IMG/VR virus record: IMGVR_UViG_3300019763_000006
Coordinates: 24,326 to 88,325 of that record
Strand: one strand, 5' to 3'
Length of the DNA stretch: 64,000 nt
Source: a virus
Part shown: positions 17,061 through 58,374 of the stretch, one piece after another
How the letters are laid out: the number at the start of each line of letters is the position of its first letter
Position numbering within the stretch: the first letter of the stretch is position 1
Notes under the pieces: model-generated
Told to the model about the DNA's origin: nothing
Seen by the model: the letters and a program-made list of their open reading frames with translations, nothing else
The model's database searches: none
Position numbers and translations under genes: made by a program

Positions 17061-17510
17061 AAATTAAATTATGGCATTCTAAAAGATGTAAGTCCATTTA
17101 TAAAAATATATCACATGAATTACAACAAAGAACTTAGAACAAAAATGTTATGTTAGAATTGTCTACATTTCCTTGAGCAAGAAGTGTAGCGTACATAAAA
17201 GTTAAATTTTATTGATAAAATTAGATTTTTAGATGTTGAAATTTCAACGTTTATAAAAATGATAAAATTAAATATTTGGTTTGCAGACATATAAACACTA
17301 TGTTTATGCAAGGGCGGTGTAGATATGGGTTATGAAAGTATATTGTAAGATATAATGAGTAATAATGGCAATATTGAGGTAGGATTAATTTTAGATGTAG
17401 AGATAGGTTGAGAAGTCATGAGCTTAACTGACAAGGTGTCAACTTTCGAGGCATTTTCTCTATATTTATCTTGGTGAGAAGTAGATATACGGAAGGTATG
17501 TGATTTTATA
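17061..17510 (+). other. Leader of homing endonuclease gene with hairpins and interrupted reading frame
   Basis: Holds a CTACATTTC/GAAGTGTAG hairpin (about 17163-17190) and a palindromic GATGTTGAAATTTCAACGTT element (17232-17251). A stem with arms TTGC..ATAAACA / TGTTTAT..GCAA follows (about 17280-17311). From ATG 17325, preceded by GGGCGGTG, a frame runs in phase with the downstream gene but is broken by TAA (17346), TGA (17409) and TGA (17475). The translated segments look protein-like (SLTDKVSTFEAFSLYLSW), suggesting a decayed or recoded 5' extension. Confidence 0.5.
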
Positions 17511-20191: not shown

Positions 20192-23100
20192 TTGGCTGAT
20201 GAAAAGATAGATGTTAAAGTCAAACTTGGACTTGATAGTACATCGGAACAACAGGTAAAAAAAGATGTTTCAAGAGTTACAAAAGAATTAGAAAATCAAG
20301 TTAATTATGAAAAACAAAGAAAACAAGTAATTAACAATATCGCAAAAGAATTGAACACTACATCTTCAATCATAGAAAAATCTTTAAAATTAACAGAAAG
20401 AGAAAGAAAAGAACACGAAAAGGTTTTACAATTATCAAAAAAAAATGAAATATCTGAAAAGAAGCAATTAGAAGATTTAGAGTTAAAAATAAGATTATTT
20501 AAAGAGTTACAAACTAGAAATATTACCTCTTTACAATCAGGTAATTTAAAAGGATTATATGATAAAAGTGCTTTAGATTCTTTTCAAAAATCTTTATCTG
20601 AATTAAGTATAAATACTCCAGATTTAGAAAAGAAAATGAAATTATTAGGTTCTGAATTTAAAAATATAAAAAATGGAGCTCAAAATAGTTCAAAAGCCAT
20701 ATCAGTTGCTAGTAAAGAAACTGCTTCGTTTGCAACTGGTATTAAAGATGCTGCAATTAAATTTGGATTATGGTCTGCGGTAACTGTTGCTTATTATGGA
20801 GCTATAAGAGCAATAGGCGAAGGTATAGATACTATTAGAGAATTAGATACCGCTCTGGTTGAATTAAAAAAAGTTACTGATGAGACAGATGTTACTTATC
20901 AAAAATTTACTGATACTGCATTTCAAATGGCAGAAGCGACAGGAAGTTCTGGTGTAGATGCTATTAAGGCAACAAGTGCATTTGCTAGAATGAATTTTAC
21001 ATTAGAAGAGTCTATTAAATTAGGCGAAAAGGCTTTAATTTTACAAAATATTGGTGATGGTATAAATACCATAGAAGAAGCAACGACAAGTTTGGTTGCA
21101 ATAATGAAAGGATTTGAGCTTCAAGCAAAAGATTCTGAACATGTTATAGATGGATTGAATGAAGTATCAAATAGATTTGCGGTAAATACAAGTCAATTAT
21201 CAAATGGTTTAATGAGAATATCTGCAACATCTAATCAATCTAATAATAGTTTAGATGAAACGATTGGTTTAATGACTGGTGCGGTTGAAATCTTACAAAA
21301 TTGGGAGAAGGCATCTTCTGGAATAAATGTTTTAACGCAAAGGATTAGAGGGGTAAGTGAAGAAGGAGAAAATCTACTCCCAACACTACAGAAAACATTT
21401 GATAGTTTGAAATTAATTAGTGGGGAAACAGTTAGAATACCTATAGAAGACGCTAATGGAGATTTAAGAAGTACTTATGAAATTTTGCAAGATTTAAGTA
21501 AAATATACCCAAATTTAGAATCTAAAACAAAACAATATGTAGGCTCTTTAGTTGCTGGAAAAAGACAAATTACAGTATTAGAAGCAATATTGCAAAATTT
21601 TGAGAATGTAGAAAAAGCGACCCAAGCAAGCATAGACTCAGCTGGAAGTGCTAGAGTAGAACAAGAGAAGTATTTAGATAGTATCGAAGGTAAAATGAAA
21701 ATTTTAGATAAAACAACACAAGAATTTTGGAGTCATTTTATTAGTTCTGATACTGTAAAAAGTACTATAGAAGCTTTTACTAAATTTATTGAAATATTTG
21801 ATAGATTAACACAATCAATTGGAGAAACAAATACGGTTTTATTGGCATTAACATTAGCAATATTAATTTTTAAAAAAGAAGCTTTGATAGGTGGTATAAA
21901 GGCTTTATATAATTTTTCTTTAAATTTATTAGGTATTGCAACAAGTGCAGAGATTGCGGCTGGGGCTGTAAATGGATTTAATTTATCTGCTAGTGGATTA
22001 ACATTTGGTTTAAGTTTATTAATACCAATGATATTACAAATAATAGATTCTAATAAAAAATTAGAAACAAGTTTGCAAGACACGAATACAGAAATTGAAA
22101 AACAAATAGATAATTTTGATAATTTAACAGAGAAAGAAAAAGAATTATTAGAATTAAGATTAAGAAATAAATTAATTGATGAGGGTTACAGTAATAAGTC
22201 AGATGTTGAAAAAAGAATTGATGATATCAACCAGGAGTTAATAAGATTTGAAAAAATATCACAAAAGTTTAGCAAGATTGGAGAAACAGGTAAAGAGTCA
22301 GAATATAATCGTAGGATTGAAAATAGACAAAAAGAGTTAGATAAACTCCATGAAATAATGAAAACTTTTGAATTATTAGAAAAAGTGGAGATGCATGAAT
22401 CTAATAAATTAACTAATGCTTACACTAATCAAAGAGATGCTTTAAATTCTTTAAAAGATAAAGTTAGTGATACATCAGATGAGATAGAAGAACTTACAGA
22501 CAAAGAAAAAGAACATCAAGAAATGATGCAATTCTCTATAGAACAATTAGATACTCTTGCTCAAAAATACCCTGAATATTCTGAAAAAGTTATAGAATAT
22601 CAAATTAAAGAAACTGAAGCTGTAATTATTGAAGCTCAAAAAAGATTAAGTGCAATGGAAATTGAGTCTTCTGCTATAGATAGAGTTATGCAAAAATACT
22701 ATGGCATGAAAGGTGTTGCGGACGATGCTACTCTTAATATGAGTAGGGCGATTTTGAATACAATAAATAGTGGTACATTTAAAGACGTTATTGATACTAG
22801 TGCATTAGATGGGGCAAAAAAAGATTTACAAGATTTACTAGACCTTCAAGAAAAATATTTTGGTAAAGACAAAAAATCATCATCTAAAACTAAAGAAGCA
22901 ACTGCATACTATAAAGAGCTTGCAAAAATTGCTGAAATAGAGAATAAAATTGCTATTTTAAAGACGAAGCAATCTTTGACTGATAATGAGCGTGAAAAGA
23001 TAAAATTAATCAGACAACAAGTTGAAGAAACTAAAAATCTACAAGAGGCACAACATGTGTTAAATGAAGCTAGAAGAAGAGATTTAGCTAATCTTAAAGT

Positions 23101-42615: not shown

Positions 42616-45615
42616 TTATTCCATACTGTTTTTATTATAAAATTGTCTTTGAGATAATTCTAATTTTCTTTCTTGCTTATAACTATCTTGTTTTACCATA
42701 TATCCTACAATTTTGATACCTTTTGTAACAGATTTTCCTCCACATATAGGACATACATCACCAAAAAAGCTGTGGTCTTTTTCACAAATGTCAATAAGGC
42801 TTACTTTACTATAATATTTTACACCTTTTCTTGCTAATTGTAATGCGAAATCCCATGCTTCTTCAAAAGTATCAAAATCTTCTCCCATTGAAACATGTAA
42901 AATCGAACCCCCATCACAATATTTATCTAATTTTGCACTTTCAATTCTATTGTAAAGAGAAGCATGTTCTTTTAGTGGAATCCATTGATTTCCATAAATA
43001 TTATAATCTTTACCTAATAATTGATTTACTTTTCTATTTCCTAAGACTAAACGGTCTTTTTTGTTTGATTTGATTGCCGAAGATTCACCTGGAATTATTT
43101 CTGAATTTGACAAAAATCCATATTCATTAATAGTATTTTCGTTCTCTTTAATTATGGTATCTAGTATATCTTTTGCTATTTTAAACCCTAAATCATTGTA
43201 ATAACATCCGCTACTATCGTAATTTAATCCATTAAATATTTTTATTGCTTCAAAAATTCCATTAATACCAACGGTTGCGAATTGGTCTTCTAGATTCATC
43301 ATATTGTGACTATATAATGGTAATAATCCATTATTTATTAATTCTTTTAAAATTTCTCGATGAGCATAATGATACTTATGAATTAATTTAACTTTATTCT
43401 TGATTACTTCAATAAAATTATCATAATTATCATAGTTTTCCATTGATAATCTTGATAAATTTAATGTTACAACTTTTGTAGAACCTACATTTAAATCAGA
43501 ACCACCAATGCTATTAAATATTTTTTTAGTATCTTGTATCTTTTTCTTATCTGAAACCAATCTGCAATTATGCGTTATTATACCATTTGGTAAAGTAAAA
43601 TATGGTTCTTCTTTATTGTCCATTGTAAAACAGTACACATCTTTGTTAGTATTCTCAATTTTTTCTATAGAGTTTATTTTAAAATAAATAGAGTTATTAA
43701 TAGTTTTAAAAATATTTTTCATATTTCTTTTATGTTTAGGGTTATACCATCTTATACAATATACTGGGTAATTTCTTTTATATTCTTCTCCTCTTATAAC
43801 TATTGGTTCATCAGTTCTATCAGAACAGTCTATAATTGAATGCATTCCTAAACTTGTGATTAGAGCTTCTAATTGTTCTGTCATTTTTTTAGAAGTAGTA
43901 TAAATCCTATTAGAATTTCCACCATCTGTGATATAGTATCCGTCTAAAATACCTTTTCTAAATTCTAAGGATTGTATTAAACAGTTTAAATTTAATTCTT
44001 TTTCTTGGGAATAGTTTCCAGATGTCCATGTTTTTATAAAGTCTTTTAACTCATACGAAGCAATAGCAACAGGATAAACATTATTATATTCTGCGTGAAG
44101 TTTTACTTCTGTATCTATATTTAATTGTTTTATTACTTTATTTAGGATAGGTAATAATTTAATATATTTCGTTTCATTTAAAGATAATTGAATTACAGGT
44201 TTATGATTTTCTTGTTTTTGCTCAATACTTCCATCCCCTAAATAAGAACCAATTAATACTCCTTGTTCATATGTTAACCCTAAATCTGCTTCTGGATAAG
44301 TGCCAAGTTCTTTTGTATTAAAAAGTAAATAATCATTAGTTGTTAATTTGTCGCTTCTAATATCTCCATTTATAGAAGGGTTTAAATGGTCTGGGGTTAC
44401 TAATATTTCTTTTTTATTTGAAGTAGAAATTTTATATAGAGTATTTGATTGAGTTTTAACTATTTGTCCTTTAGCCCAACTACCATTGTGAAAAATAGAA
44501 CCATTTTGTTTATATTTATATGATTTATTATAAAAAGATTCAAATGTTTCACATACTACTCCTCCTAATGGATTTTTTGTTATAATTTTTTGATTTTTAT
44601 CAAAACAACAGCTTGCTAAACTTGTTACTTCTTCAACGTTCATTATATTAACTTCATTAAATCCATGAGTGTAATTATGTTTAACTACCATCTTTGCAGT
44701 ATCTTCGTCTACATATTCTCCATCTCTAAAAACCAAAGAAGCTGATATTACAGGGAATGTATACCATTTCTTTTTTCTTAAATCAGTTGCATATTCTAAG
44801 AAACTGCTTTGAAATTCAAATAACTCTTCTAAATAGTCTGTAATCAATGTTCCATCAGGATATTTTTTATTCCCAAAAAATTTTAAGATATGGTCTATAT
44901 CTAAAATAGATATATTAGTATATGCTGATTGAACACCACTTTTCAAGTATGGTTGATTTAAATTAAAAATAAATTCTTGAAATTTTTGATTCCTATATTT
45001 TGTTTGTTTATCATGTGTCATATCAGCTGTATCTATTTTATAAAAGTAATATGCATATATCAAATAATCAGGAATTCCTACAGCTCCAGATTGCATATTT
45101 GTTGCATAAGATATAAATTCTAAAATATGATGATTAAAAGTATCCCAATGTTTTGGTCTTTCTGCTTTCATTTCTCCAATAAAAAACAATCCTTTTTCAA
45201 CAATTGGCTCAACCGAAAAAGCAAAGCAATAAGGCATATAAGATGAAGAATGAGAGTCGTGTTCATAAAGTTCTCCGTTTACAGCTGATTCTAAAAATTC
45301 ATCTGCCACCTCACTCCCAAATTCTTTTGACATCTGAGAATATATTTTGTTTCTTGATAATAATTTTGTAAATGGTTTTTGAGATTCATTTAACATTGTA
45401 CAAATATTTCTACCTGTTACATTTGCATTGTCATCTATTGTAGCATCTGCAACTGTCGAAGTGTTTAAAAATCCTTTAAAAAAATCGCATGTATCTAATT
45501 GAGAGGGGCTCATACCTTCAATTTTCATTAATTCATCCCCGTATTTATTATTCAATTCCTCTACTTTATTTTTAAATCTTGTATTTAATGTCATTGGAAA
45601 TTTATATTCTGCCAT
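42616..45615 (-). CDS. nrdD: Anaerobic ribonucleoside-triphosphate reductase (NrdD), intein-containing
   Basis: 999 residues including a 347-residue intein; mature enzyme about 652. ATG after AAAGGGG. Glycyl-radical enzyme reducing NTPs to dNTPs without oxygen: ASC|CRLVS is the conserved double-Cys region (interrupted by the intein), VSMGEDFDTFEEAWDFALQ is typical, and the C-terminus has the CPICGG zinc site and the radical loop KGIKIVGYMVK. The usual first CxxC of the zinc site is reduced to CEKDH. Works with NrdG encoded next. Supports an anaerobic host. Confidence 0.93.
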   Translation of the reverse strand: MAEYKFPMTLNTRFKNKVEELNNKYGDELMKIEGMSPSQLDTCDFFKGFLNTSTVADATIDDNANVTGRNICTMLNESQKPFTKLLSRNKIYSQMSKEFGSEVADEFLESAVNGELYEHDSHSSSYMPYCFAFSVEPIVEKGLFFIGEMKAERPKHWDTFNHHILEFISYATNMQSGAVGIPDYLIYAYYFYKIDTADMTHDKQTKYRNQKFQEFIFNLNQPYLKSGVQSAYTNISILDIDHILKFFGNKKYPDGTLITDYLEELFEFQSSFLEYATDLRKKKWYTFPVISASLVFRDGEYVDEDTAKMVVKHNYTHGFNEVNIMNVEEVTSLASCCFDKNQKIITKNPLGGVVCETFESFYNKSYKYKQNGSIFHNGSWAKGQIVKTQSNTLYKISTSNKKEILVTPDHLNPSINGDIRSDKLTTNDYLLFNTKELGTYPEADLGLTYEQGVLIGSYLGDGSIEQKQENHKPVIQLSLNETKYIKLLPILNKVIKQLNIDTEVKLHAEYNNVYPVAIASYELKDFIKTWTSGNYSQEKELNLNCLIQSLEFRKGILDGYYITDGGNSNRIYTTSKKMTEQLEALITSLGMHSIIDCSDRTDEPIVIRGEEYKRNYPVYCIRWYNPKHKRNMKNIFKTINNSIYFKINSIEKIENTNKDVYCFTMDNKEEPYFTLPNGIITHNCRLVSDKKKIQDTKKIFNSIGGSDLNVGSTKVVTLNLSRLSMENYDNYDNFIEVIKNKVKLIHKYHYAHREILKELINNGLLPLYSHNMMNLEDQFATVGINGIFEAIKIFNGLNYDSSGCYYNDLGFKIAKDILDTIIKENENTINEYGFLSNSEIIPGESSAIKSNKKDRLVLGNRKVNQLLGKDYNIYGNQWIPLKEHASLYNRIESAKLDKYCDGGSILHVSMGEDFDTFEEAWDFALQLARKGVKYYSKVSLIDICEKDHSFFGDVCPICGGKSVTKGIKIVGYMVKQDSYKQERKLELSQRQFYNKNSME
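43567..44607 (-). other. Intein with LAGLIDADG endonuclease inside nrdD
   Basis: Starts at Cys (CFDKNQKIITKN) and ends GIITHN before the extein Cys of CRLVS, the classic C1 ... HN|C boundary. Carries DOD-type motifs GSYLGDGSIE and LDGYYITDGG. It sits between the two cysteines of the conserved ASCC active-region sequence; splicing would rejoin a functional SCCRL. 347 residues, a full-size bifunctional intein. The reading frame is intact. Confidence 0.9.
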
Positions 45616-51555: not shown

Positions 51556-52797
51556 TTATTTTATTATATCAATAAATTCTTGCTCACTAATCATTTCAAT
51601 GCCTAATTCTTTTGCTTTCTTATTTTTAGAACTATTACTCTCTTTGTCGTTATTTAGTAAATAATTAGTATTTCTACTAACACTCCCACTTACTTTGCCA
51701 CCCAATAATTCAATTTTCTCTTGAAGTTCTTTTCTATTTTTGAATTTTTCTACCTTACCTGTAATTACAAAATTTAATCCTTCTAATTTATTTGAAGTTT
51801 CTTCTTGTGGTTGAATCATTTTCAATCCATGTGATTTAAATAATGCAATTTCTTTTGTCTTAAAATTTTCATTTTGTAAATATTTATAAACTGAATTACC
51901 AACAGAATCACCTACTAAATTTGTTAAATCTAATAATTCTGCTTCTAATAAATTATCAATATTTTTATAATAACTAGCAATTTTTTTACTAGCTGTTTTC
52001 CCACATTGTGGAATTGACAACCCATAAATAAAATTATTTAAGTTTCTATTTTTGGATTCTTCAATTGCTTTACAAATATTATCTACTTTTTTCTTTCCAA
52101 ATCTATCTAATTCGTACAAAGTTTCTTTATTTTTAGGAATATTATAAATATCAGATGGAGTGTTTAAAACAGAGATTTTATCATTGAATTTAAGACTTAT
52201 AATTGCTTTTAATGTTTCTTCACTTAACCCACGAATATCCATAGCATTCCTACTACAAAAATGTACTAGTTTTCCTAACACTTGTCTGCTGCATTTAGAG
52301 TTTTTACAGAATTGATGTACTCCATCATGTACTAAATTAGAACCACATATAGGACATTTTAAAGCTTTAGAATAGGTATTACTTCTAGTTTCGTTTTCAA
52401 CAACAGCTGGAATAATTAAATTCGCTTTAATAACTCCAATTTTATCTCCAATCCCTAACTCCAGATTTTTAATATAATCATAATTATGGAGTGTTGCTCT
52501 TGAAACATCAGTACCATCTATTTCAACACTATCAAAAATTGCCGTATATGAAACTTGTCCTGATTTACCTATATCCACCTCTATATCCCTTAAAATTGTA
52601 TATTCAGGAATATCTTCAAACTTATACGCTAACCCTGAACGAAAATGGTGATTAGTATATCCTAATGAATCAGAATATTTTATATCATCATAAGTTATAA
52701 CCATTCCATCAATAGGAATATCTTTATTATTTTTTGCAAGTTTATTTATCAATTCTTGCAAATTATCTTCTTGTGATATACATTCATAGTCATACAC
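51556..52797 (-). CDS. ligA: NAD-dependent DNA ligase, C-terminal part (after in-frame TGA)
   Basis: 413 residues in the same frame as the upstream part. Holds the end of the adenylation domain (DGMVITYDDIKYSDSLGY), OB fold (SGQVSYTAIFDSVEIDGTD), zinc finger (CPICGSNLVHDGVHQFCKN), HhH repeats and a C-terminal BRCT domain (LEGLNFVITGKVEKFKNRK). The apparent GTG start at 52797 has no ribosome binding site; the piece is separated from the front part only by a TGA at 52806-52804. It seals nicks only if the TGA is read through or the two parts assemble. Confidence 0.85.
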   Translation of the reverse strand: MYDYECISQEDNLQELINKLAKNNKDIPIDGMVITYDDIKYSDSLGYTNHHFRSGLAYKFEDIPEYTILRDIEVDIGKSGQVSYTAIFDSVEIDGTDVSRATLHNYDYIKNLELGIGDKIGVIKANLIIPAVVENETRSNTYSKALKCPICGSNLVHDGVHQFCKNSKCSRQVLGKLVHFCSRNAMDIRGLSEETLKAIISLKFNDKISVLNTPSDIYNIPKNKETLYELDRFGKKKVDNICKAIEESKNRNLNNFIYGLSIPQCGKTASKKIASYYKNIDNLLEAELLDLTNLVGDSVGNSVYKYLQNENFKTKEIALFKSHGLKMIQPQEETSNKLEGLNFVITGKVEKFKNRKELQEKIELLGGKVSGSVSRNTNYLLNNDKESNSSKNKKAKELGIEMISEQEFIDIIK

Positions 52798-52803
52798 ATC
52801 GAA

Positions 52804-53484
52804 TCATAATTGTTTAATCATATTAAACTTTTTATCTTTAGAATTAATTTCTGAAAAACCTTCATTAACTCCAAATACATAAAATTCAACGTTTCTATTT
52901 TTGCAAACTTTACTATTTAGATGCCTTGCACTTCCACTAACTAAATTTCGTGGGTTTTTATATTTTTCTTCTAAATTTTCATTGATTTTATCAAAATTAC
53001 TATAACTAATAATAGATTCTCCTACTACATTTAACTTATTTTTGTATGGTATTGTAGTAGGTACATTTAAAAAGCTGGTAATATTATGTGTAATATCTTC
53101 CCCAATTTCTCCATTCCCTCTTGTAGTAGCTAATACCAATTTTCCATCTTCATAAAATAATGATGTAGTTAGCCCATCTAATTTCGAGCCTAGCAAACAT
53201 TTTTTATTATTCATAAATTTATACAAATCATTAATTTTCTTAGTTTTGTCAAGAGATAATAATTTGTATTTAAGCTTTACTTGTTTCAATTGTGATTTAA
53301 CCTTATATCCTACATTTTGTGTAGGAGAGTTACTTATAAATGTTTGAGTTTCTAATTCTAATTTTTGAAGTTCGTCATATAACTTATCATACTCATAATT
53401 TGGAATTATTTCATTATGATTATAATATGCATTTCTTGCATTATTTAAAATTAAAATTAATTCTTTTATTCTATTTATTTTCAT
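52804..53484 (-). CDS. ligA: NAD-dependent DNA ligase, N-terminal part (ends at in-frame TGA)
   Basis: 226 residues, ATG overlapping the previous gene. NAD-binding Ia-like start, then the adenylation domain with catalytic Lys in SKLDGLTTSLFYEDG and TTRGNGEIGEDIT (motif I and following). It ends FNMIKQL before TGA; the next codons read FDVYDYECIS, so the break falls between the start and end of one domain (normally ...KxxGFxV...). A single GGA to TGA change would explain it. Without readthrough neither part is a full enzyme. Confidence 0.85.
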   Translation of the reverse strand: MKINRIKELILILNNARNAYYNHNEIIPNYEYDKLYDELQKLELETQTFISNSPTQNVGYKVKSQLKQVKLKYKLLSLDKTKKINDLYKFMNNKKCLLGSKLDGLTTSLFYEDGKLVLATTRGNGEIGEDITHNITSFLNVPTTIPYKNKLNVVGESIISYSNFDKINENLEEKYKNPRNLVSGSARHLNSKVCKNRNVEFYVFGVNEGFSEINSKDKKFNMIKQL

Positions 53485-56643: not shown

Positions 56644-57171
56644 TTATTCTATTTTTTCTAATATTTTAAGTAATTTTTCTACTTTTGGACTTCTCCATGC
56701 TGTCATAGCATAAGTATGAGCCTTTTTCGTATAATGATAATTATTTAATCTAATATGCTCTTGGCAAGCTTTCTTTGTTAAGAACATTGTGTTAGCTTCA
56801 ACAATATGTTCTAATTGCTCGCTATAGAAAAATGCATCTTCGTATATATTATTTTTAATATAATCTTCAAAATTGTAATTTGAAATAATACCATTTTCAT
56901 ACTCATATATTACACTTAACAATTCATCGTCATCTTTAAAATCTTCTTTTAATATTTTTATAAAATGATTAATAGTAGAAGATTCACCGTGGTCTGGAAT
57001 AAAAACAGATTCTCTGTCACCTTCACCACGTTCACATTTAAAATATTTATAATCACCAACTACCCAAAATCTTGGACTAGCTTGAAAATCATTTTCCTGT
57101 TCTCTTAATTCTTTTCCTAATTCTTTTAAAAACTTAACTTCTTCTTGGTTTAAATTTAATTCTTTATTCAT
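56644..57171 (-). CDS. Unknown 175-residue protein
   Basis: Start at ATG 57171 (AAGGATGATAATA upstream), overlapping the next gene's stop by 8 bp. Alpha/beta; DFQASPRFWVVGDYKYFKCE and EHIRLNNYHYTKKAHTYAM, acidic region GEGDRESVFIPDHGESST. The start region (TTCATTATTATCATCCTTTC on +) is nearly the same as that of the gene upstream. Function not recognised. Confidence 0.55.
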   Translation of the reverse strand: MNKELNLNQEEVKFLKELGKELREQENDFQASPRFWVVGDYKYFKCERGEGDRESVFIPDHGESSTINHFIKILKEDFKDDDELLSVIYEYENGIISNYNFEDYIKNNIYEDAFFYSEQLEHIVEANTMFLTKKACQEHIRLNNYHYTKKAHTYAMTAWRSPKVEKLLKILEKIE

Positions 57172-57691
57172 TATTATCATCCTTTCCAAATTTATCAAAA
57201 TCATAAGCAAAGTAAATATTATCATTACAAGTAAAATATGAACATAATTCGTTACTTATAACATCTGTATATTTTTTATCAATATCTAATTCTATTTTAT
57301 TATGATAAATATGATAAAATCCTATATCTTTGCGATATTCATATCCAATTTTTAAATCATTTAAATTTTTAAACTTGTATTTTAATTTTTTTTTTAAGTT
57401 TATTATAAAATTTTCTATCTTATTATTGTTGCATTTATTATAATATAAAAATAATTTTTCAATCTCTTTGATAGTTTCATTTATATTTCCTTCACAATTC
57501 AGAATATGAGCGAAACCCTCGGTTATTAAATCATTTGGTATTCCATAATTCTTATTACCATAAAAATCGTCAATATCCATATTATATGCTTCAAATAAGC
57601 AAGTTAACTCATTTTGTAATTTAGCAGTTTTTAAACAAGATTTATTTAATTGTATAATTTTGTCTTTTATTTCTTTTGGTAATTTATTCAT
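57164..57691 (-). CDS. Unknown 175-residue protein
   Basis: Start ATG 57691 with the same AAGGATGATAATA site as the previous entry, suggesting duplication of the leader. Helical with FAHILNCEGNINETIKEIEK; a C-terminal part with YRKDIGFYHIYHNKIELDID. Downstream of the folded region at 57711-57820. Function not recognised. Confidence 0.5.
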   Translation of the reverse strand: MNKLPKEIKDKIIQLNKSCLKTAKLQNELTCLFEAYNMDIDDFYGNKNYGIPNDLITEGFAHILNCEGNINETIKEIEKLFLYYNKCNNNKIENFIINLKKKLKYKFKNLNDLKIGYEYRKDIGFYHIYHNKIELDIDKKYTDVISNELCSYFTCNDNIYFAYDFDKFGKDDNNE

Positions 57692-57931
57692 TATTATCAT
57701 CCTTTCTTACTTAACAATCTTCCCTAACAGCGTACAACTATTACTAGCTTGGGTGTTTCCTATTATATAATAGGAGCAGGGATACTGGTTTGGAAGATTT
57801 AATAGTCTACTATTATCCCTTTTTCGACTTTGCTTAAAAGAAACATTTTATTGATACTTTGATACCTACTAAACGTTGAAATAAAGCCATTCTTATTTTT
57901 TGAGAATTGACTGTTTTTGTGTTAAAATGTG
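57692..57931 (-). ncRNA. Folded noncoding region (possible pseudoknot) plus copy of dispersed element
   Basis: Pairings by coordinate: AATCTTCC (57716-57723) with GGAAGATT (57792-57799); GGGATA (57779-57784) with TATCCC (57814-57819); AATAGT/ACTATT (57801-57814); and a hairpin TCCTATTATATAATAGGA (57758-57775). The first two interleave, giving a pseudoknot-like pattern. The + strand continues TTTTT, so a + strand RNA is also possible. Further right (57846-57912) lies box TTTTATTGAT, 15 bp, AAACGTTGAAAT and a short hairpin. No known riboswitch recognised. Confidence 0.55.
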
Positions 57932-58285
57932 TTAAATTATGTTTAAGCTAATTTTTAGAGCTTTATTTATTGAAAATACATCTTTTCTATCAATTTTACC
58001 CACTTTTCTAATAATTTGTGATTTATCAATTGTTAGAATTTGCTCACATAATAAAGCTGAATCCACTTCTAAATTATTTATATTATTTTTTATGATTTCA
58101 ACATGTGTAGGTAATTTTGCTTTAGTTGTTTTACTTGTAAATGGTATTACGATAGTTGTTGGGCTAAATTTATTACCCATATCATTTTGAATTACTACAC
58201 AAACTCTAACACCTGTTTGCACACTCCCTTCTGCCTTACTTAATTTTACTAATACAATTTCATTTCTTTTAATATTAATTTTCAT
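57932..58285 (-). CDS. MazF/PemK-like endoribonuclease toxin, no antitoxin seen
   Basis: 117 residues, ATG after AAGGAGGC. Family layout: RNEIVLVKLSKAEGSVQTGV, RVCVVIQNDMGNKFSPTTIV, VIPFTSKTTKAKLPTHVEI, LLCEQILTIDKSQI. MazF enzymes cut mRNA or tRNA leaving a 2',3'-cyclic phosphate and 5'-OH. A conserved Arg lies in GVRVCVV and a Thr/Ser in PFTSK. No antitoxin gene is found beside it; upstream is the ERCC4 gene and downstream a folded noncoding region. It has its own promoter at 58346-58374. Confidence 0.85.
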   Translation of the reverse strand: MKINIKRNEIVLVKLSKAEGSVQTGVRVCVVIQNDMGNKFSPTTIVIPFTSKTTKAKLPTHVEIIKNNINNLEVDSALLCEQILTIDKSQIIRKVGKIDRKDVFSINKALKISLNII

Positions 58286-58315
58286 AATATGTAGCCTCCT
58301 TTTTATTAAAATAAA

Positions 58316-58348
58316 ACTATCTATAAAAGTCTTACCCTTATAGATAGT
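58316..58348 (-). terminator. Terminator after ERCC4 gene
   Basis: Perfect 11-bp stem ACTATCTATAA / TTATAGATAGT with 11-base loop, followed by TTTTATTTT on the - strand. Ends the dnaE unit. Confidence 0.85.
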
Positions 58349-58374
58349 CTATCAAAAATATTATTCCTTGTCAA
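58346..58374 (-). promoter_or_regulatory. Promoter for mazF-like gene
   Basis: - strand TTGACA (58374-58369), 17 bp, TAGACT (58351-58346). The -10 overlaps the terminator stem, the same layout as at uvsE. Confidence 0.75.

Follow-up and report, generated by a model that had tools for sequence, protein, structure and literature searches.

A phage mazF gene of EndoA type without a recognisable antitoxin, and the scarcity of the EndoA motif UACAUA in the phage's coding sequences

MazF toxins are usually discussed as members of toxin-antitoxin pairs and as part of anti-phage defence. What use might a phage make of a mazF gene that stands without an antitoxin gene, and does the folded RNA region next to it take the antitoxin's place? 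Both questions are raised by a locus in a 64,000-nucleotide stretch of virus DNA (hereafter the window), which comprises bases 24326-88325 of IMG/VR record IMGVR_UViG_3300019763_000006; this record is 88,325 bases long and may be a fragment. A first-pass annotation of the locus offered two ideas, a novel RNA partner or a toxin used by the phage itself, and the second is the better of the two, with indirect support from our data. The features concerned are the following (window coordinates).

57164..57691, minus strand: next gene, encoding a 175-aa ORFan (no relative in the databases), which follows the folded region directly
57716..57820, minus strand: folded region with two interleaved stems and hairpins, likely the 5' leader of the next gene
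57835..57881, minus strand: TTTCAACGTTT-N14/15-(G)TCATTAAAA-N4-TATTTTA, a promoter- or operator-like bipartite motif that recurs across the phage and here separates mazF from the folded region
57932..58285, minus strand: mazF-like gene of EndoA type, 117 aa (profiles, alignment to solved chains)
58288..58293, minus strand: UACAUA, candidate self-cleavage site between the Shine-Dalgarno sequence and the start codon (58285)
58295..58300, minus strand: Shine-Dalgarno AGGAGG of mazF (from sequence)
58314..58350, minus strand: predicted terminator-like or operator-like hairpin before mazF
58346..58374, minus strand: weak sigma-70-like promoter candidate TTGACA-17-TAGACT (score 10/12)

The mazF open reading frame is complete. 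Its product matches Pfam family PF02452 (MazF/PemK; E=4.6e-28, 98 bits against a curated cut-off of 23.1), is assigned by profile match to phrog_1936, "MazF-like growth inhibitor" (E=5.7e-25), and aligns over its full length with solved EndoA/YdcE chains. In this alignment, Arg27 and Thr50 correspond to Arg25 and Thr48 of B. subtilis EndoA, whose catalytic roles have been described (PMC8634880). The phage enzyme thus appears catalytically intact as judged from its residues, and the annotation of a complete MazF-type gene is borne out. Membership in this family is ordinary: relatives of the phage MazF occur in 101 INPHARED phage records, and at least one MazF was found in 13 of 44 records linked by a related polymerase or MazF. 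The DNA polymerase III of the phage is nearest to that of Clostridioides phage LIBA6276 (51%), and viral contigs contained no close relatives of mazF, the ERCC4 nuclease, or the 175-aa ORFan. AlphaFold models built without an alignment were unusably poor (pLDDT 45 and 41). Elsewhere in the window, and judged from sequence only, a 999-aa anaerobic ribonucleotide reductase-like protein (42616-45615, minus strand) carries an apparent intein-like insertion, and an NAD-dependent DNA ligase-like protein is split over adjacent ORFs (51556-52797 and 52804-53484, minus strand). A very stable long intergenic hairpin lies outside the window, at 22620-22760 (plus strand) of record G000.

The 88,325-base record contains only one PemK gene, and a search across this possibly incomplete record gave zero matches to MazE (PF04014) or RHH (PF01402), so that no antitoxin of the kind expected for a type II MazEF system is encoded next to mazF or elsewhere in it. 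The earlier claim that mazF lacks an antitoxin gene therefore holds as far as MazE and RHH types in this record are concerned, and a distant antitoxin gene, sought in the same search, did not emerge. Inspection of neighbouring ORFs at 16 related MazF genes likewise showed no obvious adjacent antitoxin at any of them, and an orphan mazF is nothing unusual among phages. A type II pair might still hide behind an unrecognised antitoxin, which could be the 175-aa ORFan, a phage gene outside the recovered sequence, or a MazE supplied in trans by the host. The ORFan is indeed the next gene and runs in the same direction as mazF, and cross-neutralisation by non-cognate MazE has been reported (PMC10893535). 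Given the empty MazE and RHH searches and the lack of an obvious antitoxin next to the inspected MazF genes of the related phages, together with the ORFan's own leader, promoter-like motif and size (twice the usual one), we regard such a pair as improbable.

The annotation had also given mazF its own promoter, and this is weakly supported. A 10/12 match (TTGACA-17-TAGACT) exists, but matches of this quality are barely more numerous than in shuffled sequence (29 versus 20, a slight excess), its -35 element falls within the preceding gene, and the terminator-like hairpin (58350-58314) comes after it.

With regard to the folded region, the interleaved stems described in the annotation are present, at 57716-57820. 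Stem 1 has seven pairs (AGGGAUA/UAUCCCU, 57820-57814 with 57784-57778), and stem 2, which is interleaved with it, has eight (AAUCUUCC/GGAAGAUU, 57799-57792 with 57723-57716). They are only marginally above chance, however: an equally good pseudoknot arose in 14 of 500 dinucleotide shuffles (a rank in the best 3%), and an equally low minimum free energy for the nested fold in 29 of 500 (a rank in the best 6%). Searches for relatives returned nothing, whether with the Rfam 15 covariance models, by blastn in phages, plasmids, and the 44 related records, or with two core DNA patterns in viral contigs; the gapped pattern gave 71 chance matches there, none with the structure. It is conceivable, though we lean somewhat against it, that the stems are chance complementary words within an ordinary leader, since the shuffle frequencies are merely 3-6% and no homologue was found for covariation. 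Against this reading, the GC content of the region (36%, compared with 22% in intergenic DNA) forms a bump comparable to that around the tRNA region.

Could the folded RNA be an antitoxin or another direct partner of MazF, as first proposed? It adjoins mazF and it folds. Nevertheless, the toxin belongs to PF02452, the wrong family for an RNA antitoxin; the RNA has no tandem repeats and lies downstream, on the wrong side of the toxin gene; a promoter-like motif intervenes; and no comparable RNA was found beside related MazF genes. We consider this proposal highly improbable.

The intervening motif recurs across the phage. More specifically, it was found in the window at 17231, 32375, 48483, 51392, 56601, and 57871 (all minus strand and all intergenic), with 13-17 of 17 positions of the second block matching at the six sites, a score reached at ~1% of random positions, and with near-fixed spacing. 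At some of these sites it is accompanied by a palindromic AAACGTTGAAATTTCAACGTTT. A pattern search for the repeated motif matched one contig, which is unrelated. Judged from the sequence pattern, these sites are candidate phage-specific promoters or operators; the operator reading is also possible because two of the six point away from annotated genes. Were the TATTTTA block a -10 element, the start of transcription would fall near 57828, with the folded RNA at the head of the next gene's message. Since the folded RNA lies behind a phage-wide promoter-like motif and directly before that gene, it is most likely the gene's leader, apart from toxin control.

An alternative places the function on the plus strand, as an antisense RNA of ~160 nt to the start of the next gene, beginning at a TTTAAA-17-TATAAT promoter (57630-57658) and ending at the 57778-57820 stem followed by TTTTT. 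The promoter matches at 10/12 positions, and the plus-strand stem is stable with a T-run after it; however, promoter-like sequences that score this well occur often in this DNA, and the minus-strand reading agrees better with the repeated bipartite motif. An antisense RNA is therefore unlikely.

A separate question concerns the target side: does the motif known to be cut by Gram-positive MazF occur in the phage messages? UACAUA is the in vivo cleavage motif of B. subtilis EndoA (PMC11780869) and is cut in vitro by Symbiobacterium MazF-sth (PMC10893535). Expected numbers for UACAUA were obtained from synonymous-codon shuffles in which every gene retains its protein sequence and its codon usage. 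UACAU is depleted in the phage coding sequences (89 observed, 119 expected), and this deficit is essentially that of UACAUA, of which the sense strand of 76 genes has one copy against 22-24 expected. The reverse complement is normal (47 observed, 44.8 expected), and UACAUA ranks first among 1686 hexamers for strand-specific depletion. Its single-base variants have ratios of 0.86-1.31, with the exception of TACGTA (0/5.7), and the deficit is seen in both gene clusters, in plus- and minus-strand genes alike, and in each of the three frames. The coding sequences are thus nearly purged of the published EndoA hexamer, and a copy of this hexamer stands just before the mazF start codon. We found no description of such a target-side pattern in the literature searched, which left most subscription journals outside. 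The strand-specific loss points to selection acting on RNA. Restriction was rejected as the cause, because restriction should remove a word from both strands, as seen here for GATC words, and the reverse complement of UACAUA is undepleted. As an observation on their own account, GATC words are near-absent from both strands of the window genes, and strong depletion also affects TCAGG and CAGTG; this suggests restriction pressure.

Phages with and without MazF were then compared. Among MazF-bearing phages, a sense-only purge was found in Lactobacillus phages ATCCB (1/15.9) and LpeD (2/28.2) and in CB457P1 (3/25.3), and in weaker form in Lactobacillus phage 3-521 (12/36.2); such a purge was also found in Maenad (1/7.0) and Bacchae (2/11.0). 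MazF-bearing but unpurged are, for example, Perkons, MT835478, MT835527, and the clostridial records G005, G007, G017, G031-G034, and G040, and many MazF-bearing relatives show ratios of 1.2-1.9. Sense-strand-only avoidance (ratios 0.08-0.28) was observed in four virulent phages of Lactobacillus, Staphylococcus, and Enterococcus in which no MazF was found (L317-L320), namely LP65 (1/12.4), LfeInf (1/9.6), Staphylococcus phage UHP46 (6/22.8), and Enterococcus phage EFDG1 (4/14.1), each sampled over 60 kb. A phage MazF is therefore not required for the purge, and the purge is no proof that the phage's own enzyme was the selector; our first idea, that the purge had to stem from this enzyme, is weakened accordingly. 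The MazF-less phages LIBA6276, pCD1602_4, G028, and G029 show no purge.

In the MazF-less controls, host MazF is a sufficient cause, and it may be the driver in this phage too. On this account, host MazF/EndoA active during infection drove the purge, the phage mazF was acquired separately (e.g., for use in superinfection or competition), and the site at its start is mainly a target of the host enzyme. Besides the purge in MazF-less phages, this account can draw on references in PMC12151602 and PMC8634880, which point to UACAU specificity of S. aureus and B. subtilis MazF, and on a precedent for a host-driven purge, the avoidance of ACA in RNA phages (PMC12151602). Two Clostridioides phages, both possibly temperate, show no avoidance (LIBA6276, 1.30; pCD1602_4, 1.43). 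This counts against a host-MazF driver because C. difficile MazF is reportedly UACAU-specific. In addition, UACAUA is found in the start regions of mazF genes more often than in those of other genes. We judge this account possible, though rather more likely wrong than right.

Two further patterns were seen in these records. Words containing UUAG are strongly depleted on the sense strand in MT835527 (L301-L303; e.g., ATTAGT, 0/13.1) and MT835478 (L263-L267), which a different RNA-cutting enzyme or a recoding of TAG might explain. In the related records L151, L152, L162, and L163, MazF domains are joined to an N-terminal helical domain and sit, as judged by eye, amid an agr-type quorum-sensing-like cassette with a short AgrD-like peptide and an AgrB-like protein.

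The site at 58293-58288, at the start of mazF, is one of the few sense-strand copies of UACAUA remaining in the phage. On its own this is weak evidence, because 5 of 91 genes of this phage have a copy in the start region (-40 to +6). The word also stands at the equivalent position in Thomasclavelia phage TR-TP1 and Lactobacillus phage 3-521, and immediately 5' of the mazF Shine-Dalgarno sequence in Enterocloster phage CB457P1. Overall, mazF start regions contain UACAUA in 7 of 21 MazF-bearing phages, compared with 1.1 expected from each phage's other genes (P=5e-5), the word having been fixed beforehand from the purge. Given that E. coli MazF cleaves its own transcript (PMC5888573), a self-limiting loop is plausible.

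Collectively, we postulate an EndoA-type MazF without an antitoxin that would probably cut RNA at UACAU(A) and would be directed at host messages during infection. With EndoA-like specificity, it would let the UACAUA-poor phage messages survive; these should resist the enzyme whoever drove the purge, and MazF could therefore be usable without an antitoxin. The UACAUA in the mazF leader may make the mazF transcript a substrate of its own product and so cap the level of the enzyme, which would make an antitoxin unnecessary for expression of mazF by the phage, and the folded RNA (57716-57820) would be the 5' leader of the next gene, made from a separate promoter-like motif outside toxin control. 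For this joint model, we see the chances as evenly balanced. Its most far-reaching version, an antitoxin-free mRNA interferase acting on host mRNAs, with the phage's own mRNAs shielded by the purge and self-limitation through UACAUA in the ribosome-binding region, we put forward tentatively, as falling somewhat short of even chances. That the phage uses the toxin itself accords with the strand-specific loss of UACAUA and with the site at the mazF start, but host MazF could explain the purge.

A lone phage nuclease together with a sense-only purge of a published motif permits a direct test of mRNA interferases as phage weapons. That virulent phages lacking MazF show the purge too suggests that, in nature, the transcriptomes of DNA phages are under selection from enzymes of the MazF type, and purges of this type offer a cheap genomic readout of the RNA motif that a phage has had to avoid.

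Among known systems, type III ToxIN likewise has a nuclease toxin near a structured RNA, but the two differ in toxin family, in where the RNA lies, in tandem repeats, and in how the operon is arranged: the profile search listed no ToxN-family match for the phage MazF, its best family being PF02452, and no tandem RNA repeats were found upstream of mazF. B. subtilis EndoA (NdoA, MazF-bs) and Symbiobacterium MazF-sth resemble the phage enzyme in belonging to PF02452 and in having the catalytic Arg and Thr, and their published motif is the very word purged in the phage, whose enzyme would presumably have a similar specificity; both have a cognate antitoxin, whereas none was found for the phage gene. 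Within phrog_1936, of which the phage gene is a member, the purge and the start-codon site are undescribed in the literature searched. E. coli mazF mRNA is self-cleaved at nine ACA sites scattered over its coding region with MazE present (PMC5888573), whereas the phage gene, with no antitoxin found, has one candidate site between the Shine-Dalgarno sequence and the AUG. Finally, RNA phages under E. coli MazF are likewise depleted of a MazF motif in their RNA (PMC12151602); there the motif is ACA, the mean ratio ~0.8, and the enzyme that of the host, whereas in the dsDNA phages analysed here the motif has six bases, the ratio falls to 0.04-0.3, and the depletion is confined to the sense strand.
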